NCBI RefSeq assembly: GCF_963676275.1
Contig: NZ_OY781091.1
Span: 1,218,775-1,282,774 of the forward strand
Direction: 5' to 3'
DNA: 64,000 nt
DNA from: an uncultured Cohaesibacter sp.
Lineage (GTDB): Bacteria; Pseudomonadota; Alphaproteobacteria; Rhizobiales; Cohaesibacteraceae
Shown here: piece after piece, positions 3,360-33,531 of the stretch
Layout: every line of letters starts with the position of its first letter
Numbering within the stretch: the stretch's first letter is position 1
Position numbers and translations under genes: made by a program
The notes under the pieces: generated by a model
Database searches by the model: none
What the model saw: the letters and a program-made list of their open reading frames with translations, nothing else
What the model was told of the DNA's origin: nothing

Positions 3360-4512
3360 TGTGTTTCCTTCCTAACATGCCCATGGACAACGCCCATGCA
3401 GGGGTTTGGAAGACTGACGACAACAGGTATGGGAACTCCGCTTGGTTGCGTCCATCTTCGCGGTTTAGCAAAGATGCCGCCACATCCCCGTACAGGTGCC
3501 ACCTTGCCGCGGTTTGGCAGGTTGGCGAGGGCGTCAGCCCTTCTCATGATGATGGCTGGATAAATAAAGCATCTTTGCGGCAGACGCAAGCCTGTTGTGG
3601 ATAGTGGGCCAAAAATGGAAATTTCTGAAGGAAAAATCGCTCTGGACGGATGTCCAATTTGCTCGTATAGATTGAATGAAGGCCTTGAGAGATGGTTTTA
3701 TCAGGCATTGTATGGTGGCAATGCTTGATAAAAATACCGGAATTGGTGTGGCGCTTTTTGATGGCAATTTCAGGTTTATGTTTCTCAAAAAAAATAAGAG
3801 GCCGTCTGGTGACGACCTCTAGTGACGGTAAATTGTGGGGACCGTCCTTAGAAAGACTTTTTCTGAGCAACTCCGACATCTCGTTGGGGGACCGACATCG
3901 AACTGCATTTATTCTTGGGCCTTTCTTGATTTTGATAATACTCAAAATTGCAGAGATTTTCTATAGGTATCGAGTGTAAGCCTTGTGTTTCTGCCGTATT
4001 TGGCAAGGTTATAAAGTGTGTGAAGACGATTACCTTATTGAGTTAGGTGGTTTTTATAATTTTTTTATCAAGTAATGCTATTCGTATTTGTGCGACATTA
4101 CAATGTAATCCTTCTAAATAGTCATATATACGTACCATATATTGTTTTATGTCTAAATATTTCTTGTTTGACTGGCCAAGTAAAAGTTGGAAATTAATTG
4201 CGCAATTTCGCAAGTTTGCTTTGTCTTCCATGGTGCAGACGGGTGAATCGAATTTAACTCGAAATCTAATAAAAAATATGCACCGACTTTGCATTGTTTC
4301 ACGGGCGTAGCGCTTCTCCTTTACTCGGAGAGTTCGGGCAATACGAAAGGGGATAAGAAATTTTTAACCGCAAAGCACATTCTGCGCCCTTTACCTGTGG
4401 TTGCACGTCAATTTTTCGACTCGCAGCATGCTATCTTGCATTTGGCTGTCCAAAAGCGCATGCATCACAGGGACGCTTGCAAGCTGCCTGATCCGTTCGG
4501 AGCCTGCATGTC
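3360..4512. other. Gene-poor AT-rich region
   Basis: No convincing protein gene is seen in these 1.15 kb. Open frames on both strands (for example 3692-3979 plus and 3544-3945 minus) lack ribosome sites and recognisable domains. The region becomes markedly AT-rich after 3700. The one structured element is a terminator-like hairpin at 3787-3820, annotated separately. Confidence 0.6.
3787..3820 (-). terminator. Orphan Rho-independent terminator-like hairpin
   Basis: Read on the minus strand this is a 10-bp stem (AGAGGTCGTC, loop ACCA, GACGGCCTCT, one mismatch) followed by a TATTTTTTTT tract. It has the full form of an intrinsic terminator, but no annotated minus-strand gene ends near it. It would terminate a transcript coming from 3830-4500. 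Confidence 0.5.
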
Positions 4513-5304
4513 ATGGTGAATTTTGTCAGCCCGAGATCTCTCGCTGACTGCATGTGGAGAGTGGCGTTGCTGTGCGCTTTGGATTTCGGATTGGCTCAAG
4601 GTGTGGATGATGCCATCATCCATCTGGTCAGGGCAGGAAAAGTGGGGGCCTTGGCTGCTTTGCCAATATCGGACCTCTGGCCCAAAAGCGCCGCTGGCCT
4701 GCAGACCTTTCTGGCTGCTGCCCCCAAAAGGCCTATTGTCGGCCTGTCTTTGACCTTGTCGGGAGAATTCTCACCTTTATCGACCGGTTTCTCTCCCGAC
4801 AATCGTGATCAGCAGGGGCATCTGCCGCGTCTTGAGGATCTGGCCCGCGCTGCGTTGCGCTTCGAGCTGGACGAGAAAATACTTGAAGCCGAGTTTCGCG
4901 CTCAGCATCGGCGGTTCACTGCCCATTTGGGTGCGGCTCCACATTTTCTGGTTCTGCAACCCGAAATCCTGTATTTCGCAGCTGCCGCGCGCGCCGTTAC
5001 CCGCACGATTACCAATTTCAAGAGCAATACCATTCCGGTGATCTGCCCGCTTCTGCCGCAAGCCGATGGTTTTCGGGACAAATTGCTAAAGCGCCATGTC
5101 TGGCGTTCCAATGATCACATGCGCGAACCCTGGGTGCGCCGCGCGATGATGGAAGTGCCCTCGGCGAGCAAAATGCCACCCAAAAGCAGCTGGCTACAGG
5201 ATGGCAAGATATGGACAGCCATCCGACCGTCCTTCCCTGATGAAAGGCTCGCCCGCTTTGACAAAAACTGGGAAAAGCGGCTTGAGCAGGTAAACTGGCT
5301 GTGA
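4513..5304 (+). CDS. ChbG/HpnK (YdjC) family deacetylase-like protein with degenerate metal site
   Basis: The fold-level pattern follows carbohydrate deacetylases of the ChbG/HpnK family: an N-terminal DFGL with VDDAI, a GLxLTL strand (77-82), and an ExxAQ-RFTAHLG helix before the third metal motif. The family's metal ligands are missing. The ADDFG motif reads ALDFG, the His of GLHLTL is Ser, and the HQH motif region reads LQPEI (148-152). Family enzymes remove acetyl groups from chitooligosaccharides or hopanoid precursors using these ligands, so this copy is probably inactive or altered in function. The ATG at 4513 has a GGAG site; Met14 (4552) is an alternative start nearer the usual N-terminus. 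Confidence 0.7.
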   Translation: MVNFVSPRSLADCMWRVALLCALDFGLAQGVDDAIIHLVRAGKVGALAALPISDLWPKSAAGLQTFLAAAPKRPIVGLSLTLSGEFSPLSTGFSPDNRDQQGHLPRLEDLARAALRFELDEKILEAEFRAQHRRFTAHLGAAPHFLVLQPEILYFAAAARAVTRTITNFKSNTIPVICPLLPQADGFRDKLLKRHVWRSNDHMREPWVRRAMMEVPSASKMPPKSSWLQDGKIWTAIRPSFPDERLARFDKNWEKRLEQVNWL

Positions 5305-6055
5305 TTTCTTACCCTATTTTTGCCTCTTGTTATGGATGATTCAGCTTTTTACCCTGCGTTCTGCGAAACAATTTTATGAAAATACAACATTTCCGAGTAA
5401 AAACTCAAATACGCCACTTGAGTTCCTCTTAGGGCGCGGTATTCTTGTATTGCACGATGGGTGTGGCCAGTTGCGAGCAAAGCCCAGCTTCTACAACTTT
5501 AGTGGCCCTGTTCATTGTTGAGGAAAACGCAATATAACATATAGATATGAATATGTGACTGAGCCGGCTTCCTTCTTTGCCGGGAAATGACATTGGGTAA
5601 ATAGGGCGAGATCTGAACAGACGCCCAAATTCAATGCAATAGATGGAACAAGTCGCTAGGCAGTTTGCGGTTTCTTCAATTTGAGCTTGTATTTGGCCAA
5701 TTTGCATCAAGAAAGCCTTCTTGGCCAAACAGGATCAGACCATCGGTTGAGGCTCGTTTTCTACGGGCATGTACGAACATAGTCGCGGTCGGATTTCATT
5801 CGATGCTGCGACAAGGCGGGTCGCTTTTCGGGGGACTGGTGGCCCGCCTCTTTCAACCTCACCATCATGATCGTCGCTTCTTTCTCTCATATCGATTCTC
5901 ATCGACCTGTTGCTATCAATCTGGACAGATCAGGCTGAATTGTAAGCCTGATTTTGCACAATTATCGATTTCATCATTTTGGTGCCCGTTTTTTCAACAT
6001 GGAGAAAATGCGCTTTGAGTACAGTCGTGTTCCCTTGGATTTTACCCAAATATGT
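5305..6055. other. Intergenic region without recognisable gene
   Basis: About 750 bp between the ChbG-like gene and the convergent Cas6-like gene. Short open frames here show no ribosome site or family likeness. A long-looped GC-rich inverted repeat (AGGCGGG at about 5814 pairing with CCCGCCT at about 5847) is present, but it lacks a clear T-tract for either strand. Confidence 0.5.
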
Positions 6056-7054
6056 CTAAATCAGGTATAGATCATAGCGACCTTGCCCGAATGCAACCAT
6101 CGGGCCTGCATGCAGCAATTCTCCCAGACGAAGCAGCTGAATGATTTCCGCCCGCTTCTCTTGAGGGAGATGGATCTGCAACAGACCGGTCTGCCCATTC
6201 ATGGCAATGGATGCACTGCGCTTCTGACTGACAGACCGGTGCCATTTCAGCTCGGTCAATCCTGCTTCATCAATCTTGCAGGCCTTGATTGCCTCTCCCA
6301 CCGCTTGCAAATCCTGTCCCGGTTCGAGCCCATGCCAGCGGGCGACATCCGACGCACGGCTGATCAGCGCTTGAAGAAACTGTTCTCCGGGGGATAGCTC
6401 GGGCTGGCTGGCATCACAATGAAAAGGAGTGACGAAAGAGACCATGGCGCGTTCGGCAAGCTCCTGTTCCCGATCCTGTCCCGTCCAGACATTTTCAACA
6501 GACCGAATGATGACGCTGTCACAAACCGGTCCCAGTCCGCCAATAAAGACGCCCTGTTCAATGGCGCGGTGACAGGCGTCTGAAATTTCACTGCCCCAAA
6601 GCAGGCCCAGTCCGAACAGTCGCAGGGTGATGCGAACGCTTGTCGCATCGGCAGTTTCGCTGCGCACGACCCAGGGCAGGGCGCGGTCCGAACTGGTCTC
6701 TTCACTCTTGTCCTGCGGCATGTTGAAGAAAACCTGAAAGCCGCTGGCAGGCCCCCAGGGGCAGGGGAGTCCGGCGAGCGCTTCCCGGGATGCGGTTTTC
6801 ATCAATTGCGACCCGATGGCCTGCCGGACAGCACCGGGAAATCCCGGATGCTGGGCCTGCGGTCCGTCTCCCTCGCATTCGAAAGTGATGTCCCTTATGG
6901 TCAGGCTTTGCAAAAAATGATCAAAGCCGCAGTCGCTTTCCGGCCTTGCAAGCAGATGCAAAAGATCGTTGCCGGTGGGCGCAATGGCTGGAGCAAACAG
7001 GAATGTTGGGCTCAGGGTTGCGCAGTCCATATCATGTGCGGATATCTTGTTCAT
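6056..7054 (-). CDS. Stand-alone Cas6-like RAMP protein
   Basis: The 332-residue protein has the layout of the Cas6 C-terminal-domain family (PF10040-type pre-crRNA endoribonucleases). An N-terminal RAMP half carries a PGAVRQAIGSQL segment, then LPCPWGP and FQVFFN, corresponding to the usual RGAFG and CPYA-FE pattern. A C-terminal RAMP half includes VSFVTPF and ends LGELLHAGP followed by the Gly-rich FGQGRYDL loop. Cas6 cuts CRISPR transcripts, but no repeat array or other cas gene lies in the window. The ATG at 7054 is preferred because AGGTGA sits just upstream; GTG at 7063 is the alternative. The active-site His cannot be assigned by eye. It could be a domesticated RNA-processing enzyme. 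Confidence 0.72.
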   Translation of the reverse strand: MNKISAHDMDCATLSPTFLFAPAIAPTGNDLLHLLARPESDCGFDHFLQSLTIRDITFECEGDGPQAQHPGFPGAVRQAIGSQLMKTASREALAGLPCPWGPASGFQVFFNMPQDKSEETSSDRALPWVVRSETADATSVRITLRLFGLGLLWGSEISDACHRAIEQGVFIGGLGPVCDSVIIRSVENVWTGQDREQELAERAMVSFVTPFHCDASQPELSPGEQFLQALISRASDVARWHGLEPGQDLQAVGEAIKACKIDEAGLTELKWHRSVSQKRSASIAMNGQTGLLQIHLPQEKRAEIIQLLRLGELLHAGPMVAFGQGRYDLYLI

Positions 7055-7196
7055 GAAGCTCACCTAAAAACACGAAGGTCAATTGATCTGGCATGCCGGA
7101 GCTGCATGCCCTTTTCGTGCCTAGTCTGGAATGCCAGAGGCGACTTGTCGATTAAAACAGGGCGGGGATTTTTAAGATGCATCCCTTCTTGAAGGC

Positions 7197-7250
7197 AAGG
7201 GATTGGCCGACAAGGGATTGGTCGACAAGGGATTGGCCGACAAGGGCTCC
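7197..7250. repeat. Short tandem repeat, 15-bp unit
   Basis: Three near-identical copies of AAGGGATTGGCCGAC (7197-7211, 7212-7226 with one change, 7227-7241) are followed by a partial fourth. They lie in the 260-bp space between the Cas6-like gene and the CII-like gene. Just upstream, AAGATGCATCC at 7174-7184 resembles one half of an NsrR operator, but the second half is poor. Confidence 0.8.
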
Positions 7251-7315
7251 AGACAATCGTCTTGCACCGGGCAGAAAGGACAGGGCCTCAGCTGGAAAAA
7301 GGAACTGGGCGGGCG

Positions 7316-7783
7316 TCAGCTTCTCATGCCGGAAACAAATTCGCGCAGGGAAATGAGACTGCGCTCCGCATCGTCGATCGCCTCCATGATGGTGATCGCT
7401 TCCCGATGATCAATGCGCCGATCTTTCAGCGCCTGATCTATGGTCTCCAGCACGTCCGAGGCCTCGAAAACGATCCGGTGTGCTGCCTGAAAAATATGGT
7501 CTTCGTGATCCTCCGGAGCGGGGTCAATCCGCTCGGCGGCAACGAAGGCCGTGCCCTTGAGCAGATAGCTGACCAGAGAGGGATCCGGGAAAAAGGCAAT
7601 CAGCCGACGGATTTCGTCTGCCGAAAATGGTGTCATGCCCTGTAGCCGCTGATAGAAAGACTGATAGCTCATGTCCGTTCCCTTGGCGACGGAGGCTATG
7701 TCATGTCTTTTGCTTTCCGTGATGGCTTTGCGGACCAGAAAGCCGAAATGCTTCCCTCTGTCCTTGGTCTTGAGTGGGGTCAT
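7316..7783 (-). CDS. Phage CII (CP76)-like regulatory protein
   Basis: The 155-residue protein resembles the phage regulatory protein CII family (PF06892). An N-terminal helix-turn-helix region (DIASVAKGTDMSYQSFYQRL, about 28-47) is followed by FSADEIRRLIAFFPDP and a helical C-terminus with EASDVLETIDQALKDRRI, as in that family. Such proteins control lysogeny or plasmid functions in mobile elements, but no other phage gene is nearby, so this is an isolated chromosomal copy. GGGAG lies six bases before the ATG. It sits upstream of the Cas6-like gene on the same strand, separated by 260 bp with a tandem repeat. Confidence 0.65.
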   Translation of the reverse strand: MTPLKTKDRGKHFGFLVRKAITESKRHDIASVAKGTDMSYQSFYQRLQGMTPFSADEIRRLIAFFPDPSLVSYLLKGTAFVAAERIDPAPEDHEDHIFQAAHRIVFEASDVLETIDQALKDRRIDHREAITIMEAIDDAERSLISLREFVSGMRS

Positions 7784-7908
7784 TCAGGGCTCCCGCAGCG
7801 AAGATTTGAGAGTCGATTTTCTTGCCACAACCTTATATTGAATATGGTTGCGCAAAAAGACCCTGATATCTCAGGATTGCGAGAAGGACTGATTTTTTGG
7901 GAATAACT

Positions 7909-8391
7909 CTACTGATCTTGAGCGCAGGGCATGACGCTTCCATCCGGCGCAAGCACCAGATGCTTGGCATTTTTCGACTTCTCGACGATTTCTGCCAAAC
8001 TATGCTCATTCAGACTGGCCACAAACTGCTTGATCGAACGCGACATCACCCGCGACATTTCACAGCCGCCGAACATCGGGCAATCCGGTTGTGGTTCATC
8101 ATTGCAGCGCGGGCAAAGGCATTCGACGACGCCAAAGTCCGCTTCCATCGCCTTGGCCACATCGCCCATGCGAATATCTTCTGCGGCCATGCCCAGCACA
8201 AGACCACCGCCGCGCCCGCGCGTGGTTTTGAGGAAGCCGCTATTGGACAATTTGGCGATCAGCTTCATACAATGTGTGCGGGAAAGGCGCAGGGCCGAGG
8301 CGACCGTTTCCACAGTCAGGCTGCGCTCGTCATTCATCGCGACCAGCATCAAAATGCGATAAGCAAAATCCGTCCCTTTGGCCAATCTCAT
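7909..8391 (-). CDS. Rrf2-family Fe-S transcriptional regulator, NsrR-like
   Basis: The protein begins MRLAKGTDFAYRILM, the standard Rrf2 start, with a winged helix (LTVETVASALRLSRTHCMKL) and the GRGGGLVLG wing. Rrf2 proteins such as NsrR and IscR sense nitric oxide or Fe-S status through a cluster bound by three cysteines. Here the cluster loop holds five: Cys91, 93, 96, 104 and 110, with eight extra residues compared with typical NsrR. The VECL start and the spacing to the last Cys favour NsrR over IscR. The start at 8391 is chosen over the longer frame to 8460 because of GAGGTG just upstream and family length. It is divergent from slyX. Confidence 0.85.
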   Translation of the reverse strand: MRLAKGTDFAYRILMLVAMNDERSLTVETVASALRLSRTHCMKLIAKLSNSGFLKTTRGRGGGLVLGMAAEDIRMGDVAKAMEADFGVVECLCPRCNDEPQPDCPMFGGCEMSRVMSRSIKQFVASLNEHSLAEIVEKSKNAKHLVLAPDGSVMPCAQDQ

Positions 8392-23876: not shown

Positions 23877-24165
23877 GGCATTAACTGACTGAATGGGGAA
23901 ACGGCTGATGCCGTTGCGGGAGTATATTTGACTATTGTCTAACAAGACCCAATTCAAGTCTGATTAGCTCACAGCTTCCATGCATAAATAGCTGTGCTTG
24001 CATTCGTCAATTGGCACAATCGTATATGTGCAAATGATCTTCATCTTTTGCGTGAGCAAAAAAAAAGCTGCGCCAATCCCTTACGAAAATGCGCGCAAGA
24101 ATGTTCGTGAGGGTAGATATGCGATAGATATGAGAATACCGGTGAGAATTTCGAGGTTGAGACCG

Positions 24166-24696
24166 TCAGGCAATCTGACGGTCATGCTCATATTCGAAAT
24201 CCATGCTCTGGTCGCTCAGGCTGATCGGCTTGCAAAAATGCACGCGCTTGAACGTATCGCGTCCGTGAGAGGGCAAAGCCCGATGGGTTTCGCGGAAACC
24301 ACGGCGATTGTAAAAAGCGATCAAGTCTTCCATCACTTCCGGCGTATGCAGCCGCAGCTGATGCAACTCGCGGGACTCGGTCAGCATTTCCAGTTCTGCA
24401 AGCATCCGCTTGCCCAAACCTTCTTTCTGGTGATCGCGATGAACCGCCAGATAGTCGATATACAGTGCGCCATCCACTTCGTGCAGCGCAGCCGCTGCCA
24501 GCACAACGCCCCGATCTTCCAGCACATAGAGATTACCGCACTGGTAAAAGTCGCGCATGTTGGAGAAGGCATTTGCCGGCTGGCCAACGCCCATACGGTC
24601 GCCGATATAAGCCATGGATTTGAGGAAAATGGACCGGATTTCGACGAGTTGATGCGATTTGGCCAATGAGAATGAGGGTGAGAATGAGAGTGTCAT
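24166..24696 (-). CDS. GNAT family N-acetyltransferase
   Basis: The 176-residue protein carries the acetyl-CoA binding motif A as LAVHRDHQKEGLGKRML, with preceding strand ALYIDY and following LRLHTPEVMEDLIAFYNRRGF. Its ending, with the neutral-to-basic tail after FKRVHF, is not family-specific, so the substrate is unknown. The ATG is preceded by AGGAT. It is a single gene. Confidence 0.85.
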   Translation of the reverse strand: MTLSFSPSFSLAKSHQLVEIRSIFLKSMAYIGDRMGVGQPANAFSNMRDFYQCGNLYVLEDRGVVLAAAALHEVDGALYIDYLAVHRDHQKEGLGKRMLAELEMLTESRELHQLRLHTPEVMEDLIAFYNRRGFRETHRALPSHGRDTFKRVHFCKPISLSDQSMDFEYEHDRQIA

Positions 24697-25005
24697 TGAT
24701 TTTTATCCTGTTCTTGTTCCGGCGGGTCAACCCTTCCATTCTGGCGCTTTTCCTTAAGCGCGGATGCAAATGAAACGGGAGCCGGATATTGATTAAGGTC
24801 GTTTTGTTCACCGACAGGATATGTTGTCATGATCGTGACATTACAATGACGAGCCCTACGAAATTGCATTTATTCCGTCTGTACTAATACGAAAGCATTA
24901 GGCGAAAGCGCCAAGAGAAAGACGGGCCGAAGAACCAGAGGGCACAAGGCCCGCCACTCTCTGGTCCGAGCGTGACAGGCCGGTTCGTTGAATAGGAGGG
25001 GAGGG
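24697..25005. other. Intergenic region with possible terminator of the kinase operon
   Basis: No gene is seen. An inverted repeat (CGGGCC at 24923-24928 pairing with GGCCCG at 24948-24953) is followed on the minus strand by a pyrimidine-rich TCTTTCTCTT run. It may end the two-component transcript. Confidence 0.45.
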
Positions 25006-26691
25006 CTATTTGCGCGGCAGGATGATCGTCGCTTCAAGACCGCCTTCCTTGCGGTTTTTCAGCGTTACGTCGCCGCCATGGCTGCGCACGATGGTCCGCG
25101 TGATCGATAGCCCCAGCCCGACCCCGCCGGTTTCCAGATTGCGTGATCCTTCCACCCGGAAGAAGGGGGCAAAGACGTCATCAAGCTTTTCTTCCGGAAT
25201 GCCCGGTCCATTGTCGCAGACCCTGATTTCAATCTGGCGTGGTGTCTCATCCAGCTTGATTGCGGCATTGCCAGCATAGCGCAGGGCGTTTTCAGTCAGG
25301 TTCCGCAAGGCCCGCTTGAGGCTGAGCTGGCGGCAGGAGAAGGTCAGGCTGTCCGGCCCTTCGAAACTGACATTCTTGCCCAGTTCCTGATAATCTTCCG
25401 CCATGGAAGACAACAGTGCGGCGAGATTGACATCGCGGGTTTCTTCCTGATTGGCGTCTTCTCTGGCAAAGGCAAGAACCGCATCGGTCATGGCCTGCAT
25501 TTCTTCAAGGGTTTCCTGCAGCTTGTCGCGCATTTCCTCGTCTTCGATGAACTCGGTTCTCAGCCGCAGGGTGGTGATCGGCGTGCGCAAGTCATGGCTG
25601 ACGGCGGCGAGCATGCGGGTGCGATCCTGCACGAAGCGCATCAGGCGTTCCTGCATGGCGTTGAAGGCGCTGATGGTGCCCTGAATTTCGGTCGGTCCCT
25701 CTTCTTTCAGTGGTTCAATGGCTTCGCCGCGCCCCAGTTTGCGCGATGCACTCTCCAGCTCCCGCAAGGGCGCCGTGAGCTTGCGGACGATAAGCACCAC
25801 GACCATGACAATCAGGATTGCCGTCATGATGAGAGAGGCGAGAAAGGGGCGGCCCCATTTCTCCGGAGGATTGGGCAGTTCCGACTTGGCGATCAGCCAC
25901 TGGCCACTGTCCAGTGGAACGGCAATCTTCATGTCCTGTGCCCAGAAGGCATCACGCTCCCGGAAACGGCGCCACTGGGCGGCCTTGTCCGGCCAATCCT
26001 TGCGGCGGCCCAACCCCTGACCTCCCATCGGCCCTTGACCATTCATGAGCCCCTGACCATTGATGGGTGTCTGGCCAATTATAGGATTCTGGCCATTGAT
26101 GGGGCCCTGGGCATTCATGGGGCCTTGGCCATTCATCATGCCACGCCCGCCCATCATGTCATGCTCGTCCATCATGTCCGATGGGTGAATATCACTTGGA
26201 ACGGCGGCATTCCTTGCAGCCATACGCTCTCTTGCAGCGAGGAAGAACGGGTCATTGGGCAGTTTGCTAAAGCGCACTGACTTGTCCGCAAGGCCCGCCC
26301 GACGCTCAACCCGAAGGGCAAAATCCGCTTCAATGCTGCCTGCTTTGGGCAAGGGCAGATCGGTCTTGTCCGCCAATTCAAAGCGAATGCCCTGTCCCTC
26401 GGCGGCTTTGAGGAAACGATGATGAAGATCCATGTCCGTCTGGTTGAGAACGCGCACCACCGAAGCCGTGCGGTCCAGAATCTGGCCGCGCGTTGCTGTC
26501 AGCGTGATATTCTTGCGTTCGAAGGCGAACATGGTGATCGAAAGGATCTGGGCGACAACAAGCGCGATGAGCAACGCTGCAATCAATTGCCCGGCTAGAG
26601 AGCGGGGCCAGAAGTGAAAGCCGTTTCTTTTCATCCTGACGAAAGAGCGCTTTGCCTGACGGCTGCCTTTCTGCATTGTGGATCGGATCAA
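25006..26691 (-). CDS. EnvZ-like sensor histidine kinase with Met-rich periplasmic repeat
   Basis: This membrane kinase has TM1 about 33-55, a periplasmic domain about 56-280, TM2 about 283-303, HAMP, the phosphoacceptor His366 in VSHDLRTPI, and the ATP-binding N (NLTENALRYA), G1 (DNGPGIP) and G2 (GVGLGLSI) boxes. The periplasmic part holds an Asp/His/Met-rich stretch (170-184) and seven Met/Ile-Asn-Gly-Gln-Gly-Pro-like hexapeptides (186-227). This region may bind metal ions. The start overlaps the regulator gene by four bases (ATGA), so the two are translationally coupled. The divergent EF-hand genes are likely targets. Confidence 0.92.
   Translation of the reverse strand: MIRSTMQKGSRQAKRSFVRMKRNGFHFWPRSLAGQLIAALLIALVVAQILSITMFAFERKNITLTATRGQILDRTASVVRVLNQTDMDLHHRFLKAAEGQGIRFELADKTDLPLPKAGSIEADFALRVERRAGLADKSVRFSKLPNDPFFLAARERMAARNAAVPSDIHPSDMMDEHDMMGGRGMMNGQGPMNAQGPINGQNPIIGQTPINGQGLMNGQGPMGGQGLGRRKDWPDKAAQWRRFRERDAFWAQDMKIAVPLDSGQWLIAKSELPNPPEKWGRPFLASLIMTAILIVMVVVLIVRKLTAPLRELESASRKLGRGEAIEPLKEEGPTEIQGTISAFNAMQERLMRFVQDRTRMLAAVSHDLRTPITTLRLRTEFIEDEEMRDKLQETLEEMQAMTDAVLAFAREDANQEETRDVNLAALLSSMAEDYQELGKNVSFEGPDSLTFSCRQLSLKRALRNLTENALRYAGNAAIKLDETPRQIEIRVCDNGPGIPEEKLDDVFAPFFRVEGSRNLETGGVGLGLSITRTIVRSHGGDVTLKNRKEGGLEATIILPRK
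26011..26136 (-). repeat. Seven 18-bp coding repeats in the sensor kinase
   Basis: The DNA encodes seven consecutive hexapeptides: MNGQGP, MNAQGP, INGQNP, IIGQTP, INGQGL, MNGQGP, MGGQGL. The repeat is exact in length (7 x 18 bp) and keeps Gln at position 4 throughout and Asn at position 2 in most, so it is probably a functional low-complexity spacer or ligand region that can expand or contract. Confidence 0.9.
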
Positions 26692-27455
26692 GCAGAGCCC
26701 TCCGCATCGTCATAATCCATTGGCGCATCCTCTACCTTGCCGGTCACCTTGGCGGTGAAGACATAACCGCCGCCGCGCACGGTCTTGATCATTTTCGGGG
26801 TCTTGGGGTCTTCCTCGATCTTCTTGCGCAGACGGGAGACCTGATTGTCGATGGAACGGTCAAAAATCTGAGCCGTGCGACCGGAGGTCAGATCCAGCAA
26901 CTGGTCGCGCGAGAGCACCATGGTGGGGCGTTTGAGAAAGGTGATAAGCAGCCGATAGTCCGCAGCGCTCAAAGGAACGGTAACGCCGCCCGGGCTGACC
27001 AGTTCGCGCTGATGCACATAGAGTATCCAGTCATCAAAGGTCAGCACTTCGGGCTCATCGGGCTTCTGTGCCTCGCGTGGCATCGACTGGCTGCGTCGCA
27101 GCACCGATTTGATGCGGGCCAGAAGCTCTCGCGGATTGAACGGTTTGGTCAGATAGTCATCGGCACCGATCTCCAGCCCGATGATCCGGTCAGTCTCTTC
27201 GCCCAGAGCCGTGAGCAGGATAACCGGAATATTCTCATTCTCCCGGACATAGCGGCAAAGGGTCAGCCCGTCCTCGCCGGGCATCATCACATCAAGCACG
27301 ATGAGATCAATGGCTGCGGTCTTCAGGGTCTGGCGCATCTTGGCCCCGCCATCGGCGTCGCTCACCCGGAAGCCATTCTTCGAGAGATATTTTGACAACA
27401 GCTCGCGAATGTCCCGATGATCATCCACCACCAGAATATGTGCTGATTGTTCCAT
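26688..27455 (-). CDS. OmpR-family response regulator
   Basis: The receiver domain has DD at 11-12, phosphoacceptor Asp55 in LIVLDVMMP, and Lys in YLTKPF. A winged-helix DNA-binding domain follows (LLDLTSGRTAQIFDRSIDNQVSRLRKKIEEDP, then GGGYVF). The receiver is complete, so normal phosphorelay from the kinase encoded just downstream is expected. GGAGAA lies before the ATG. Regulators of this type bind direct repeats of about 6 bp at 10-bp spacing, which is what is found upstream of both neighbouring EF-hand genes. Confidence 0.94.
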   Translation of the reverse strand: MEQSAHILVVDDHRDIRELLSKYLSKNGFRVSDADGGAKMRQTLKTAAIDLIVLDVMMPGEDGLTLCRYVRENENIPVILLTALGEETDRIIGLEIGADDYLTKPFNPRELLARIKSVLRRSQSMPREAQKPDEPEVLTFDDWILYVHQRELVSPGGVTVPLSAADYRLLITFLKRPTMVLSRDQLLDLTSGRTAQIFDRSIDNQVSRLRKKIEEDPKTPKMIKTVRGGGYVFTAKVTGKVEDAPMDYDDAEGSA

Positions 27456-27639
27456 ATCAGAATTCTCCGTTGCCTTTCGAGACCTGCACCTCCCGGCATT
27501 TCTGCCGTTTTTGCAAAGAGGCGGTCCTTCCTCCTCGATATATTGTCCTGCAGTTATCCTATATCAATTATCAGATATCATGAAATTTGTTGCTGTCGAG
27601 AAAAATATACGTGCTTTTTCAAGCACTAACGAAGGAAAT

Positions 27640-27674
27640 TGTAACCGTCTGTATCAACCGCCAAAAGCGATACA
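27640..27674. promoter_or_regulatory. Operator-like block shared by the EF-hand genes (copy 1)
   Basis: TGTAAC at 27640, TGTATC at 27650 and the inverted GATACA at 27669. The first two are direct hexamers at 10-bp spacing, the usual footprint of an OmpR-type dimer. The block lies in the divergent region, 185 bp from the regulator gene and 211 bp from the EF-hand gene. The same elements at the same spacing recur at 29113-29147. I infer binding by the adjacent regulator. Confidence 0.6.
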
Positions 27675-27702
27675 TTGAGAGACATTCTGACAGAATCCAG
27701 CG

Positions 27703-27888
27703 ATGGACCTGAGCAAAAAAGATCCTAAATTGAGCTCATCAGGCAAGCGAACAAAACCAACAACCAGCGCTCCTGAAACCAGCAAACCGGCCCTGCACAA
27801 TCTACAGGGCTCAACAGAAACTGTAGAATGTCTGGGCTCCATGGCCAATGAGGAATTGGCCCCAGAGACAAGAGGAAAAAAGAAATGA
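27703..27888 (+). CDS. Possible short leader ORF before the EF-hand gene
   Basis: A 61-codon Lys/Ser/Thr-rich frame ends so that its TGA overlaps the ATG of the EF-hand gene as ATGA. No good ribosome site precedes its ATG and it matches no family, so it may be untranslated leader. It is listed because a similar overlapping frame stands before the second EF-hand gene. Confidence 0.25.
   Translation: MDLSKKDPKLSSSGKRTKPTTSAPETSKPALHNLQGSTETVECLGSMANEELAPETRGKKK
27843..27861 (+). promoter_or_regulatory. Leader hairpin with GAGGA loop (copy 1)
   Basis: A perfect 7-bp stem GGCCAAT / ATTGGCC closes a five-base GAGGA loop, 23 bases before the start codon and just ahead of the ribosome site. The same loop on a stem differing by a compensated base pair occurs before the second EF-hand gene. 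A second stem lies upstream (TCTACAG 27801-27807 with CTGTAGA 27821-27827). Confidence 0.55.
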
Positions 27889-28907
27889 AAAACCTTACCA
27901 AATTTGCATTGGCTATCGCATTGGTCAGCGGCGCATCCGCTACGGCACTCAGCGTTAACAGCGCCTCGGCCAAGGGCTGGGAGCATGGCCGCGGCACGGG
28001 GCCTGCAATGGCACAGCCATTCAACGGCCCGCGCGGCATTCTGGATCTGAAGGCAAGTGATACCGACAAGGACGGTACCCTGACCAAGGATGAGCTGGAC
28101 ACAGCCCTCGCCAAGAAGGTCACCGACAATGACAAGGATGGTGACAATGCCGTATCGCTTGAGGAATTCAAGGCCGAATGGATGGCCATGACCAAGGATC
28201 GCATGGTCCGCGCCTTCCAGCGCTTCGACCGCGATGGCGATGGCAAGGTGACACTTGAAGAATTTTCTGATCCGGCAACAGCGCGTTTCGACAGGCTCGA
28301 CGCCAACAATGACGGCAAGGTAGATAATGCCGATCGTCAGGTCCGCCGCAATCAGGGGCCGCGTCAGGATTTCGCAAGAGGCGGTTTCGCCCATCATGGC
28401 GGCATGAAAGGTCCGCGTGGTGGCCAGTTCCAGAAGGGGCAGTTCCAGATGGGGCAGTTTGGTCCTCAGGGCAACATGATGGGTGGCCCGCGTGGTGGTC
28501 AGTTCCACATGGGTCATGCGCAGATGGGGCATCACCAGATGGGCCAGTTCCCGATGGGTCAGTTCCAGATGGGACAGTTCGGCCCGCAGAGTGGTCCTCA
28601 ATTCGGCCCCCAGTTTGGTCCTCAGGGCAACATGATGGGCGGTCCGCGTGGTGGAAACTTCCCGATGGGCCAATTCCCGATGGGTCAGTTCCAGATGGGG
28701 CAGTTCGGCCCTCAGGGTGGCTCACAATTCGGCCCTCAGTTTGGATCTCAGGGCAACATGATGCCATTCCCGCCAGCACCGGCTTCTGCGCCAGCTCCGC
28801 AGCTCGCCCCTACAGCGGCTCCTCAGGCCCAGGCTCCTGTTCCGGCGCCTGATGCCGCCTCCGCTCCAGCTCCGGACATGCCTCCTCTTGCCATGGTGCA
28901 GGAATAG
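27885..28907 (+). CDS. Secreted EF-hand protein with long Met/Gln/Gly/Phe repeat tail
   Basis: The 340-residue protein has a signal peptide (MKNLTKFALAIALVSGASATALS), then four EF-hand loops: DTDKDGTLTKDE (59-70), DNDKDGDNAVSLEE (81-94, extended), DRDGDGKVTLEE (115-126) and DANNDGKVDNAD (139-150). A repetitive tail (about 168-293) of GQFQMGQFGPQ-like units follows, then a Pro/Ala end. The EF-hands should bind calcium; the Met/His-rich tail could bind soft metals such as copper, which is inference. It is divergent from the two-component genes and followed by a strong terminator. GAGGAAAAA precedes the ATG. Confidence 0.88.
   Translation: MKNLTKFALAIALVSGASATALSVNSASAKGWEHGRGTGPAMAQPFNGPRGILDLKASDTDKDGTLTKDELDTALAKKVTDNDKDGDNAVSLEEFKAEWMAMTKDRMVRAFQRFDRDGDGKVTLEEFSDPATARFDRLDANNDGKVDNADRQVRRNQGPRQDFARGGFAHHGGMKGPRGGQFQKGQFQMGQFGPQGNMMGGPRGGQFHMGHAQMGHHQMGQFPMGQFQMGQFGPQSGPQFGPQFGPQGNMMGGPRGGNFPMGQFPMGQFQMGQFGPQGGSQFGPQFGSQGNMMPFPPAPASAPAPQLAPTAAPQAQAPVPAPDAASAPAPDMPPLAMVQE
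28386..28763 (+). repeat. Coding repeats in the EF-hand protein tail
   Basis: The DNA encodes repeated MGQF, GPQ and GNMMGGPRGG units. The block GPQGNMMGGPRGG occurs twice and NMM a third time, showing internal duplication of about 150-170 bp units. The composition (Met, Gln, Gly, Phe, Pro) recalls the hexapeptide repeat of the nearby kinase. Confidence 0.85.
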
Positions 28908-29001
28908 CACTGCAAGGCCGATGGCCTGCTTTGGATAACCAGCCAAGAATATGAGATCGGCACCTTCGGTTAGCCGGTCCGCCATGAGGCTTCTTCTTTT
29001 T

Positions 29002-29044
29002 ACGCCCGTTAGTCCACCCCTGTGGCTGGCGGGCGTTTTTTTTT
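29002..29044 (+). terminator. Terminator of the first EF-hand gene
   Basis: Stem ACGCCCG / CGGGCGT with an internal smaller hairpin, followed by eight or more T residues, about 95 bp after the stop codon. It separates the first EF-hand gene from the second, which therefore needs its own promoter. Confidence 0.88.
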
Positions 29045-29112
29045 CAAATATCGACAATTGGACGAACAACATGATCCCTTGCCAGCTTGCTGGTGGAAAA
29101 GTTCAGAAAAAA

Positions 29113-29147
29113 TGTATCTGTCTGTATCCAGCCAATGAGGCGATACA
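29113..29147. promoter_or_regulatory. Operator-like block shared by the EF-hand genes (copy 2)
   Basis: TGTATC at 29113, TGTATC at 29123 and inverted GATACA at 29142. Element order and spacing (10 and 19 bp) are identical to the block at 27640-27674, and bases around the elements are also partly kept (GTCTGTATC, GCGATACA). It is 190 bp upstream of the second EF-hand gene. Confidence 0.6.
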
Positions 29148-29199
29148 GAAGGTGACAAATCTTCCCGTTTCTTCCCTAAAAAGGCGCTATTCTAGGGCC

Positions 29200-29340
29200 A
29201 TGTTAATGACATCAGCCGAGCGGACGGATGACCGGCTGAAGGACGGGAAGATCCGAACAGCCGGATCACTCGGGACTTGGAAACGAAAGACCGTGCCGAT
29301 GAGGAATCGGCCGAAATCTGACAAAGGACTAGTGATATGA
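29200..29340 (+). CDS. Possible short leader ORF before the second EF-hand gene
   Basis: A 46-codon basic frame whose stop overlaps the EF-hand start as ATGA, the same arrangement as at 27885. No clear ribosome site, no family and no sequence likeness to the first leader frame. It may be leader RNA only. A TATTCT -10-like box at about 29188 lies just upstream. Confidence 0.2.
   Translation: MLMTSAERTDDRLKDGKIRTAGSLGTWKRKTVPMRNRPKSDKGLVI
29295..29311 (+). promoter_or_regulatory. Leader hairpin with GAGGA loop (copy 2)
   Basis: A 6-bp stem GCCGAT / ATCGGC closes the same GAGGA loop as at 27843-27861, 25 bases before the start codon. One stem pair differs as G-C here against A-T there, so pairing is kept. 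Another stem lies upstream (CCGGCTG 29232-29238 with CAGCCGG 29258-29264). Confidence 0.55.
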
Positions 29341-29972
29341 AAAACGGAACTAAAATCGCTCTTGCAGTAGCATTGGTTGCAGGCCTGTCAGCAACGACCA
29401 TGGCCGTAACAGGCGCCTCGGCAGGTGGTTGGGGCTACGGTTGGAACAATAACCAGCAGGACGGCAACTGGATGGGCCGCGGCGGCATGATGCGCGGTGG
29501 CTACAATATGGGACCGCGTGGCGGCATGATGGCCGGTGGTTTCATGAATGGTGGTTTCATGGGTGGTCCTGGCGCGTTTCGCGGTGGCATGATGCTGCAG
29601 CAGTTTGACACCGACAAGGATGGCACCCTGACAAAGGCAGAGCTGGACGCCGGATTTGACAAGAAACTCGCCGACAATGACAAGGACGGCGACAATGCCA
29701 TCAATCTTGAAGAATTCAAGGCTGAATGGCTCAGACTGACTCAGGATCGCATGGTTCGCGGCTTCCAGTTCATGGATAGCAACGCCGACGGCAAGATCAC
29801 CCCGGAAGAGCTGAAGGCTCACGCAGACCAGATGTTTGCCTTCATGGACCGCAATAATGATGGCAAGCTCGACCCGACAGATGCTCCGCGCCGTGGTGGC
29901 CGTGGATATGGTCCTCGCTTCATGCAGGCACCAGCTCCGGCAGCTCCTGCGCCTAGCGACAGCGCCCAGTAA
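29337..29972 (+). CDS. Secreted Met/Gly-rich EF-hand protein
   Basis: A paralogue of the preceding EF-hand gene with a near-identical signal region (MKNGTKIALAVALVAGLSATTMA). A Met/Gly/Arg-rich segment (45-86, MGRGGMMRGG, MMAGGFMNGG) here precedes the EF-hands, whereas in the paralogue the repeats follow them. Four loops: DTDKDGTLTKAE (91-102), DNDKDGDNAINLEE (113-126), DSNADGKITPEE (147-158) and DRNNDGKLDPTD (171-182). The extended second loop is shared by both. AAGGA precedes the ATG. Probably periplasmic, calcium-binding, and co-regulated through the shared operator block. Confidence 0.88.
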   Translation: MKNGTKIALAVALVAGLSATTMAVTGASAGGWGYGWNNNQQDGNWMGRGGMMRGGYNMGPRGGMMAGGFMNGGFMGGPGAFRGGMMLQQFDTDKDGTLTKAELDAGFDKKLADNDKDGDNAINLEEFKAEWLRLTQDRMVRGFQFMDSNADGKITPEELKAHADQMFAFMDRNNDGKLDPTDAPRRGGRGYGPRFMQAPAPAAPAPSDSAQ

Positions 29973-30009
29973 AGCAAGCCATTCTGACCTTCATTTGAGT
30001 ATGACAAAG

Positions 30010-30039
30010 CCTGCGGCCCTCTGGGCTGCAGGTTTTTTT
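30010..30039 (+). terminator. Terminator of the second EF-hand gene
   Basis: Stem CCTGCGGCCC / GGGCTGCAGG (one mismatch) with a three-base loop and seven T residues, 37 bp after the stop. Confidence 0.9.
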
Positions 30040-30107
30040 GATCCAAGCGAACGCTATTCAGCTTTATTCAGCCATATACAGCTGGAGCTGTTCTCAATGA
30101 GAGCGGA

Positions 30108-30599
30108 TCAATCCGCTTCATGTGCCTCAAGGCGGTAGCCATATTCCCAGCTATTGGAGAAATCGCCCAGAAAGCGTATGACCGGCACTTTGGTAAAGCC
30201 GATCTTTTCATAAAAGGCATGTCCTTCCAGAAAGCGGGTGTCGCTCCAGAGCCGGATCGTCTTGCCCTGACGGCTATCGATCAGATCGGTTGCCAGATTA
30301 TACATCGACCATGCCAGGCCCTGTCCACGAGCCTTCTTGGAAACATAGACCTTGTGCAGTTCGAAAATCCCCGGCGTCAGAGACTCCGATACGGCCAGAG
30401 AGCCAACGATTTCGCCATCCTGTTCGGCAACCCAGATCTGCCCGCCCATGGCGGCATAATAGCTGCTGGGATGTTCCAGCTCTGGAAATTCATCTTCGAT
30501 ATAATGGCAATTTTCATAATCGGCGAAAACCGACGCAATCAGCTTGCCGATCGCAGCTCCATCTTCATCGGTTGCTGAACGGATCAACGCGTAACTCAT
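30108..30599 (-). CDS. GNAT family N-acetyltransferase
   Basis: The 163-residue protein has the GNAT core: strand IWVAEQDGEIVGSLAV, then LHKVYVSKKARGQGLAWSM as motif A, and a C-terminal LEGHAFYEKIGFTK. The substrate is not evident. It is convergent with the second EF-hand gene and belongs to no obvious operon. Confidence 0.87.
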   Translation of the reverse strand: MSYALIRSATDEDGAAIGKLIASVFADYENCHYIEDEFPELEHPSSYYAAMGGQIWVAEQDGEIVGSLAVSESLTPGIFELHKVYVSKKARGQGLAWSMYNLATDLIDSRQGKTIRLWSDTRFLEGHAFYEKIGFTKVPVIRFLGDFSNSWEYGYRLEAHEAD

Positions 30600-30683
30600 G
30601 GCTAAATCTCTCGTGCAAATTCTTTCGGGGGTAGAAAGCCTGTTGGCCAGAATGTCTATCGGCCCAAATGCCCATCAGACTGC

Positions 30684-30712
30684 AAAACCGGCAAGGGAGG
30701 GGGGGCTGCCGG
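30684..30712 (-). terminator. Terminator downstream of the small gene at 30726
   Basis: On the minus strand CCGGCA, a pyrimidine-rich 13-base loop, TGCCGG and TTTTGC. It lies 14 bp past the stop of the 88-codon gene, which supports that gene being real. Confidence 0.6.
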
Positions 30713-30725
30713 GCTTTTCTTTCCA

Positions 30726-30992
30726 TCAACGATAGATGGCGATGCCGATGCCGTTGCGGCGTGCCTGATCGACGATCTCGGCGATCGCCGGATCAGCTAT
30801 ATCCCCTTGCGGACGCAATACCCGGGAAACGGTAATAAAATTATAGCCAGCCTTGATCAGCACCTGCTTTGCCGTCTCTCTTGCAAAACCGGCATGTTCG
30901 CTCTCTATCGCCACAATGAAATTGCGGCGTTGGGGTTGCGTTTGCGGTGGCTTGGGGGCTTCGCTTGCCCGTCCCTGAACACAGAAAATCAT
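30726..30992 (-). CDS. Small hypothetical protein
   Basis: Not recognised. The 88-residue protein has a Pro/Gln-rich start and an alpha/beta-looking rest (NFIVAIESEHAGFARETAKQVLIKAGY and a C-terminal ARRNGIGIAIYR). No signal or membrane segment. An AAAGAGA site lies before the ATG and a terminator hairpin follows the stop. Confidence 0.55.
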   Translation of the reverse strand: MIFCVQGRASEAPKPPQTQPQRRNFIVAIESEHAGFARETAKQVLIKAGYNFITVSRVLRPQGDIADPAIAEIVDQARRNGIGIAIYR

Positions 30993-31213
30993 GCGCTTGT
31001 CTCTTTAGATCCCATCAACCTCAACTCATAATGGCCTATCTGCCTTATGTCGAGATGTTATCACCAATTATGCCATAGAAGACGGGGATGACCGAAACAA
31101 GGCGGCAAATAAGGGCATAAGCAAGCCCTGATGCAGGCGGGCAGAAAGAGGCCCGCCAAAGGCAAAGCGCCCCATGACCAGCTCTGCTTGCTCTTTGGCT
31201 TTGCCAAACGGAA

Positions 31214-33065: not shown

Positions 33066-33263
33066 TCAGGCAAGCGCTGCCGGGAAGCCAGCTTCTTCGA
33101 TGGCGCTGCGGATGCTTTCCGGGTTGGCACCCGATGTTACCTTCACTTCGCCGGTCTCCAGACTGGCATCCACTTCGGCTGAAGCATCAACGCTCTTGAC
33201 CGCTTCGGTTACCGATTTGACGCAGCCACCGCAGGCCATTTCCTTTACATTCAACGTGATCAT
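33066..33263 (-). CDS. Heavy-metal-associated (HMA) domain protein, copper chaperone-like
   Basis: This is a single 65-residue HMA domain: MITLNVKEMACGGCVKSV carries the metal-binding CxxC (Cys11, Cys14), followed by the usual VDASAEVDASLETGEVKV strand and the AGFPA end. Such CopZ-like proteins carry copper(I) in the cytoplasm to P-type ATPases, but no ATPase gene is close. ATG at 33263 is chosen because GGAG lies eight bases upstream; the longer open frame to 33449 has no family support. Confidence 0.9.
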   Translation of the reverse strand: MITLNVKEMACGGCVKSVTEAVKSVDASAEVDASLETGEVKVTSGANPESIRSAIEEAGFPAALA

Positions 33264-33531
33264 GGGACGGTCTCCATTCTTCAATCTGTTAAAGTTGAAT
33301 AATAAACATATATTTCCTGTATGAAGCCGATGCAATGCTTTTGGATTGCGGCAGGCCTTAAGGGCGCAGGGAAATGGATCTGAGCCGCATAGCCCACGCA
33401 TAAAGCGCGTTGAGGGAACTGCCCGAAGACCGCCTTGCATTTGAAGCATTTCATTTTGAACCGATTTCTATAGAATGCCATTTTTTACAATGGTAAATCC
33501 GATAGATCGAACCCCACTTGCAGGAATAATC

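Follow-up and report, generated by a model that had tools for sequence, protein, structure and literature searches.

A BfmRS/RstAB-like two-component system and a four-box operator proposed to control EF-hand genes in Cohaesibacter

The 64,000-nucleotide stretch of an uncultured Cohaesibacter sp. analysed here (the window, to whose positions we refer unless another locus is named) contains a sensor histidine kinase and an OmpR-family response regulator encoded on the minus strand, divergent from two plus-strand genes for EF-hand proteins. Comparison of sequences, which covers the gene set, the operator and its spacing, the link to a regulator family, further sites and a leader hairpin, makes it very probable that this is a BfmRS/RstAB-like two-component system of the OmpR type that controls the EF-hand genes through an operator of four boxes. 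An earlier reading of the same DNA (the original prediction) had proposed one regulon with an OmpR-type operator and EF-hand targets, and in this respect it stands; its further proposal, that a metal is sensed by a methionine-rich loop of the kinase, is not supported.

The four-box operator and its conservation

The operator of the first EF-hand gene spans 27640..27684 on the plus strand (boxes at 27640-45, 27650-55, 27669-74 and 27679-84), and that of the second gene spans 29113..29157 on the same strand (boxes at 29113-18, 29123-28, 29142-47 and 29152-57). The first three boxes are those already predicted, as blocks at 27640-27674 (TGTAACCGTCTGTATCAACCGCCAAAAGCGATACA) and 29113-29147 (TGTATCTGTCTGTATCCAGCCAATGAGGCGATACA), and both their sequence and their spacing proved exact; the distance from block to start codon is 210 bases for the first gene and 189 for the second. 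The fourth box (GAGACA and GTGACA, respectively), which the prediction missed, lies 4 bp past the third in both copies, and the resulting consensus, TGTAWC-N4-TGTAWC-N13-GWTACA-N4-GNGACA, is made up of two pairs in opposing orientation, each a tandem repeat with a period of 10 bp. The exact three-box block occurs only in these two copies in the 5.03 Mb genome (the reversed pattern, used as a control, gave none), and 0 of 100 dinucleotide shuffles matched it. In several first EF-hand genes box 4 lies about 17 bp before a GATAG-like stretch; to judge from the sequence, it may be a half-site for the regulator, a -35 element, or both.

The operator was aligned over the upstream regions of 31 EF-hand genes, the two of the window and 29 from 17 congeners. 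An ortholog of the regulator (80-96% identity) is present in 17/17 congeners, with one or two EF-hand genes beside it in all of them, and 31/31 EF-hand genes of these 18 genomes are preceded by the four-box operator, no box of which departs from the consensus by more than one mismatch; boxes 1 to 4 are exact in 31, 30, 27 and 28 genes, respectively. Loss of the block in relatives that keep the two-component genes would have spoken against a common operator; no such loss was found upstream of the EF-hand genes of the congeners, all 29 of which carry the block in a general form (A/T at the variable base, at most one mismatch per box); not every one of them has the strict form with GATACA.

The predicted genes fit the domain searches. 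The kinase (25006..26691, minus strand) has HAMP, HisKA and HATPase_c domains above the Pfam cut-off and a periplasmic loop; its start as listed is a TTG that overlaps the stop of the regulator gene (26688..27455, minus strand; Pfam Response_reg and Trans_reg_C). EF-hand protein 1 (27885..28907, plus strand) has four EF-hand loops, counted by eye, and a Met/Gln/Gly-rich tail, and EF-hand protein 2 (29337..29972, plus strand) has a Met/Gly-rich N-terminal part followed by the EF-hand core. Both match Pfam EF-hand families; their export is judged by eye only, from signal-like N-termini. As the loops of both proteins look canonical in the alignment, binding of Ca2+ by the products is likely on family knowledge. 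The predicted fold of EF-hand protein 2 is confident only in the EF-hand core, and a fold search with it returned no match in the PDB under E 0.001, the best rows being calmodulin.

Regulator relatives and further sites

The association extends outside the genus. We compared 73 non-genus relatives of the regulator (46-69% identity; the best among the matches listed in the scans, plus five selected plasmid loci) with 61 less related OmpR-type regulators (35-48% identity) as controls. The tandem site TGTAWC-N4-TGTAWC, with at most one mismatch, was found within 300 bp upstream of 30/73 relatives, Pseudomonas included, and of 0/61 controls, three of which have a two-box site with two mismatches. 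A divergent EF-hand frame, defined as two or more EF-hand motifs within 1.5 kb (a simple pattern, with few of the frames checked against Pfam), is present at 39/91 relatives, that is, 18/18 in the genus and 21/73 outside it, and at 0/61 controls. In the facing-pair test, carried out on loci with a pair and with two mismatches allowed, 18 of the 50 non-genus loci having a pair have a second pair facing it at a spacer of 13 (at most 5 mismatches in all); other spacers from 3 to 30 account for no more than 6/50 loci each, and the controls for none. The three-box block of the original prediction recurs with zero mismatches upstream of the regulator of Pseudomonas parakoreensis (locus L100), and the recognition-helix residues DRSID..VSRLR are common to the regulator and its Pseudomonas relatives. 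On a tree of the regulators the EF-hand association is clustered, with 0/500 shuffles as low. The link between regulator, operator and EF-hand genes is thus well supported by comparison.

Further candidate sites were sought with the three-box pattern in the 18 genomes, two mismatches being allowed: there were 90 matches against 19 for the reversed pattern, many sites being counted on both strands because of the facing arrangement. The genus has 11 sites with at most one mismatch away from the main locus, and 10 of them lie upstream of PepSY_TM or EF-hand genes in the same direction, at 100-127 bp for PepSY_TM, 44 or about 115 bp for a Met/Gln/Gly-rich EF-hand protein and about 195 bp for a third EF-hand protein. 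The reference proteins came from three of the sites (L070, L078, L075), so that seven of the remaining eight are independent. Of the 19 sites with two mismatches, 15 were looked at, and 10 of these could also be placed before such genes.

A PepSY_TM homolog (57-85% identical to that of the own genome) stands behind a site in 13/18 genomes, including that of the window, where the three-box search placed the site at 1370128-1370162 (L070), 101 bp upstream of the PepSY_TM membrane protein (L070 4862-6028, minus strand). To judge from these positions, the PepSY_TM protein is likely to be an additional target relative to the known circuit, as are further EF-hand proteins in some species. In L073 and L076 the PepSY_TM homolog adjoins an Nramp-like transporter, named by eye. 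A degenerate site in the own genome (L072 4037-4071) adjoins a gene that flanks an EF-hand gene in L074, L078 and L079; behind the L072 site itself no EF-hand gene was matched.

Several observations weigh against the proposed system. The majority of the non-genus relatives lack the two-box site within 300 bp (43/73) or, by the definition given above, a divergent EF-hand frame (52/73), and only 29/289 sampled genomes of the class have a regulator this close (E 1e-85 or better). On the tree the EF-hand link has to change 14 times, and long branches limit what the tree can show. Some relatives adjoin molybdoenzyme or RND-efflux genes, and the regulator family is therefore not tied to metals. Five of the 19 two-mismatch sites, and a one-mismatch site of the own genome (L071 4188-4222), have no assigned target, and binding of the same site by other OmpR-type paralogs is conceivable. 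A rival proposal is that the operator belongs to another regulator, such as a 45% identical paralog whose regulator-kinase pair lies, in several congeners, some 3-7 kb away from the PepSY_TM site, and that the adjacent regulator is not the binder. We consider this very unlikely: relatives of the present regulator in different families, and in Pseudomonas, have the site upstream, and less related regulators do not.

Known systems and the signal sensed

The original prediction knew of no named system with this combination of features, a view that has to be abandoned: in P. aeruginosa, BfmR shares the motif and has an EF-hand gene, efhP, as a target (PMC8025907). The published BfmR motif, TACAA-N3-GATACA, reads on the other strand as TGTATC-N3-TTGTA, with the same tandem half-sites as the operator described here, and BfmR reportedly activates efhP 11,268-fold, more strongly than any other target (PMC8025907). 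The tandem TGTAWC-N4-TGTA form of that motif fits boxes 1-2 and, on the opposite strand, boxes 3-4, and here too the EF-hand gene under the operator is near the two-component genes. There are also differences. EfhP is given as an example of a fusion of a bufferin EGKC part with an EF-hand part (PMC12452194), whereas neither EF-hand protein of the window has a bufferin domain and no MNIO or DUF2063 genes lie beside them; the facing of two pairs across 13 bp, seen here, is not described for BfmR in the excerpt of its report (PMC8025907). By analogy, the system would work like BfmRS-EfhP; it is a variant, since its EF-hand proteins have neither the bufferin part nor the enzymes that go with it. 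A system of this kind was already known; the additions are the operator architecture, in which two pairs face each other with fixed spacing, the target set, in which the EF-hand proteins are free of the bufferin domain of EfhP, and the hairpin.

At locus L098 of Pseudomonas sp. S31, a related regulator (55% identity) is accompanied by a kinase, DoxX, DUF2063, an MNIO enzyme and an EGKCG/EF-hand precursor with a tandem site upstream. This gene set fits the reported EfhP type (PMC12452194), and from it we infer that L098 is a bfmRS locus; its regulator falls in a separate, mainly gammaproteobacterial clade of the tree. The observation that BfmR drives efhP in P. aeruginosa can be widened to a branch of regulators in Alpha- and Gammaproteobacteria with one operator architecture, and the repeated proximity of this branch to exported EF-hand proteins offers a testable entry into the role of bacterial periplasmic EF-hand proteins.

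Among other known systems, RstAB of Escherichia and Klebsiella shares the kind of half-site and the period, its RstA box (TACATNTNGTTACA) consisting of tandem TACA sites ten bases apart (PMC4117788). The proteins of the window score far below the NCBIfam cut-offs for RstA (161 vs 330 bits) and RstB (149.6 vs 478). EnvZ and OmpR are the best-scoring NCBIfam families for the kinase and regulator, but the scores are again below the equivalog cut-offs (OmpR 254.6 vs 331, EnvZ 217.4 vs 415 bits), as they are for CpxA; to our knowledge, no EF-hand target is known for EnvZ/OmpR. The heavy-metal families CopRS/CzcRS/CusRS (TIGR01386 and TIGR01387) were discarded at 147.8 vs 292.55 bits for the kinase and 141.4 vs 279.2 bits for the regulator. 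UzcRS of Caulobacter crescentus resembles the present system in being an alphaproteobacterial metal-responsive two-component system with many exported targets, and was rejected as its identity because the UzcRS motif, CATTAC-N6-TTAA, is unlike TGTAWC-N4-TGTAWC (PMC8963506). The EF-hand proteins give a weak profile match to lanmodulin, also an EF-hand protein, which was likewise rejected (NF053806; 34.4 and 32.1 bits vs a cut-off of 135). A proline in the EF-hand loops is the mark of lanmodulin, and the loops of both proteins lack it. In the literature, mostly open-access titles and abstracts, we found no description of an alphaproteobacterial EF-hand/PepSY_TM regulon or of the leader hairpin.

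In the mechanism that seems to us the best explanation, of which binding by the regulator, direction of control, the ion and the role of the hairpin are inferred parts, the kinase would answer an envelope signal and phosphorylate the regulator, two dimers of which would bind the two tandem TGTAWC half-site pairs facing each other across 13 bp. The last box would sit where a -35 element could be, and the EF-hand genes would be activated. The regulon would also hold, in the genus, the PepSY_TM membrane protein and, in some species, the further EF-hand proteins. The EF-hand proteins themselves would be periplasmic binders of divalent ions, most likely Ca2+, serving as buffers or as feedback on the kinase, and the hairpin before their start codons would probably tune translation.

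A possible, though somewhat doubtful, alternative is a general regulon of envelope stress, in which no ion is sensed and the EF-hand proteins are two of several exported clients. It is consistent with the nearest kinase families (EnvZ, CpxA and RstB), with the PepSY_TM protein among the likely targets and with the many kinds of genes that BfmR controls in P. aeruginosa (PMC8025907). Against it, EF-hand genes are found beside this regulator time and again, in many families, and additional ones are among the likely targets at other places in the genome. The efhP promoter of P. aeruginosa is moreover reported to answer to Ca2+ and Fe, which suggests a link to ions in that species, although the passage goes on to a different regulator, CarSR (PMC11559002).

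Rather unlikely, in our estimate, is a regulon for copper or another soft metal, in which the Met-rich loop of the kinase would bind the metal and Met-rich EF-hand proteins would sequester it. The Met/Gly-rich stretches noticed originally are indeed present in the kinase loop and in both EF-hand proteins of this genome. Two relatives also point to copper, and the reading depends on these two: the plasmid locus L099, in which a multicopper oxidase domain lies near an EF-hand protein very rich in Met, and L098, where the operator precedes the EF-hand bufferin precursor with MNIO, DUF2063 and DoxX genes, bufferins being reported to chelate copper (PMC12452194). Both regulator and kinase, however, are below the cut-offs of the heavy-metal subfamilies, no copper gene is named beside the four annotated plasmid relatives examined, and the loop itself is variable. 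The Met/Gly-rich insert of the periplasmic loop (25996..26181 on the minus strand, ends approximate, placed by alignment) occurs in the window and in the relatives closest to it; L037-L039 have Gly/Gln-rich sequence in its place, and L041-L049, 9/17 congeners, lack it entirely or almost entirely, although they keep the regulator, the operator and the EF-hand genes. Being lost or almost lost from these nine and predicted to be disordered (predicted local distance difference test, pLDDT, <50), it is a poor candidate for the sensor; we rejected it as a conserved one, and regard sensing of metal by this loop as unlikely. The best matches in a fold search with the kinase are cytoplasmic cores of CpxA: the 50 rows listed cover the cytoplasmic part only, or are longer chains with a poor root-mean-square deviation, and none of them bears on the sensor domain.

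As a separate observation, a related two-component pair, the Met-rich EF-hand protein and the multicopper oxidase domain of L099 occur together at 3674-8305 of that locus, on a plasmid of Pseudohalocynthiibacter aestuariivivens.

The leader hairpin

Close to both EF-hand start codons there is a shared hairpin, which escaped the original prediction: GGCCAAT-GAGGA-ATTGGCC at 27843..27861 (plus strand) and GCCGAT-GAGGA-ATCGGC at 29295..29311 (plus strand), where one pair differs from the first copy in a compensated way; each starts about 40 nt before the start codon of its gene. The form GCC(A/G)AT-GAG(G/A)A-AT(T/C)GGC is found in 28/31 EF-hand leaders of the genus, both own genes included, its ATG lying 32-39 nt before the EF-hand start codon; of the three other leaders, two keep the stem with another loop and one is without a stem. 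Variation affects the outer pairs and one of the inner ones, and the L036 copy contains a mismatch. Over the 28 sequences (20 distinct), 94.3% of the cells pair, compared with 15.7-51.4% in slid controls, and 3/7 pairs change on both sides. The number of shuffles out of 500 that reach the observed measure is 0 for pairing, 3 for pairs changed, 16 for cells changed, 39 for pair types and 3 for covariation; a slide by +3 equals the hairpin in the number of changed cells and of pair types. Because the sequences are related, these figures amount to moderate evidence only. The EF-hand leaders of six loci from other families are shorter and have no such hairpin by eye, and Rfam searches of 24000-31000 (E up to 5) and of the loci L070 and L084 (gathering scores) gave no match. 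If functional, the hairpin would be an undescribed RNA element.

A short upstream frame, MRN(W/R)..., starts inside the hairpin (27843-27884 and 29295-29336). In the 31 leaders it stops across the start codon in 9, fuses with the gene in frame in 9, where it would read as an N-terminal extension, stops earlier in 8 and runs on out of frame in 2, while 3 have no ATG. Since its continuation and frame vary, the stem explains the conservation better than a peptide does, and a conserved upstream peptide was rejected as the sole cause; a contribution of the upstream reading frame is possible. CsrA was rejected as a binder of the hairpin, there being no CsrA gene: PF02599 is absent from the genome and present in 3/14 control genomes.

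Hairpin-like 17-mers are in excess in the genus (two mismatches, among the matches listed), which we read as mostly a bias of coding sequences; among the exact matches listed, one (G011, L089) lies outside an EF-hand locus, inside a reading frame. The paralogous regulator-kinase pair mentioned above (45% identity) is at L070 8796-11578, or about 1372795-1375577 in the own genome. In the intergenic stretch upstream of it lie a two-box-like site and a hairpin that hardly differs from the one in the EF-hand leaders; GACAATGAGGAATTGGCCAAGCAGA occurs near the pair in 5/11 loci searched (the place falls outside some of the other six), where it follows a two-box-like site and precedes no conserved reading frame. 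From its sequence, the stretch is possibly a short RNA. CsrB acts as a decoy for CsrA. Control at two levels, by the operator and by a new cis-acting RNA hairpin on the EF-hand messages (with its GAGGA loop, and also holding the start of the upstream frame MRNW...), with the short transcript as a decoy for a hairpin-binding factor, seems to us improbable.

Finally, 3 kb past the second EF-hand gene, and with no sign of belonging to the EF-hand system, the window encodes an HMA-domain, CopZ-like protein (33066-33449) that scores below the CopZ cut-offs.

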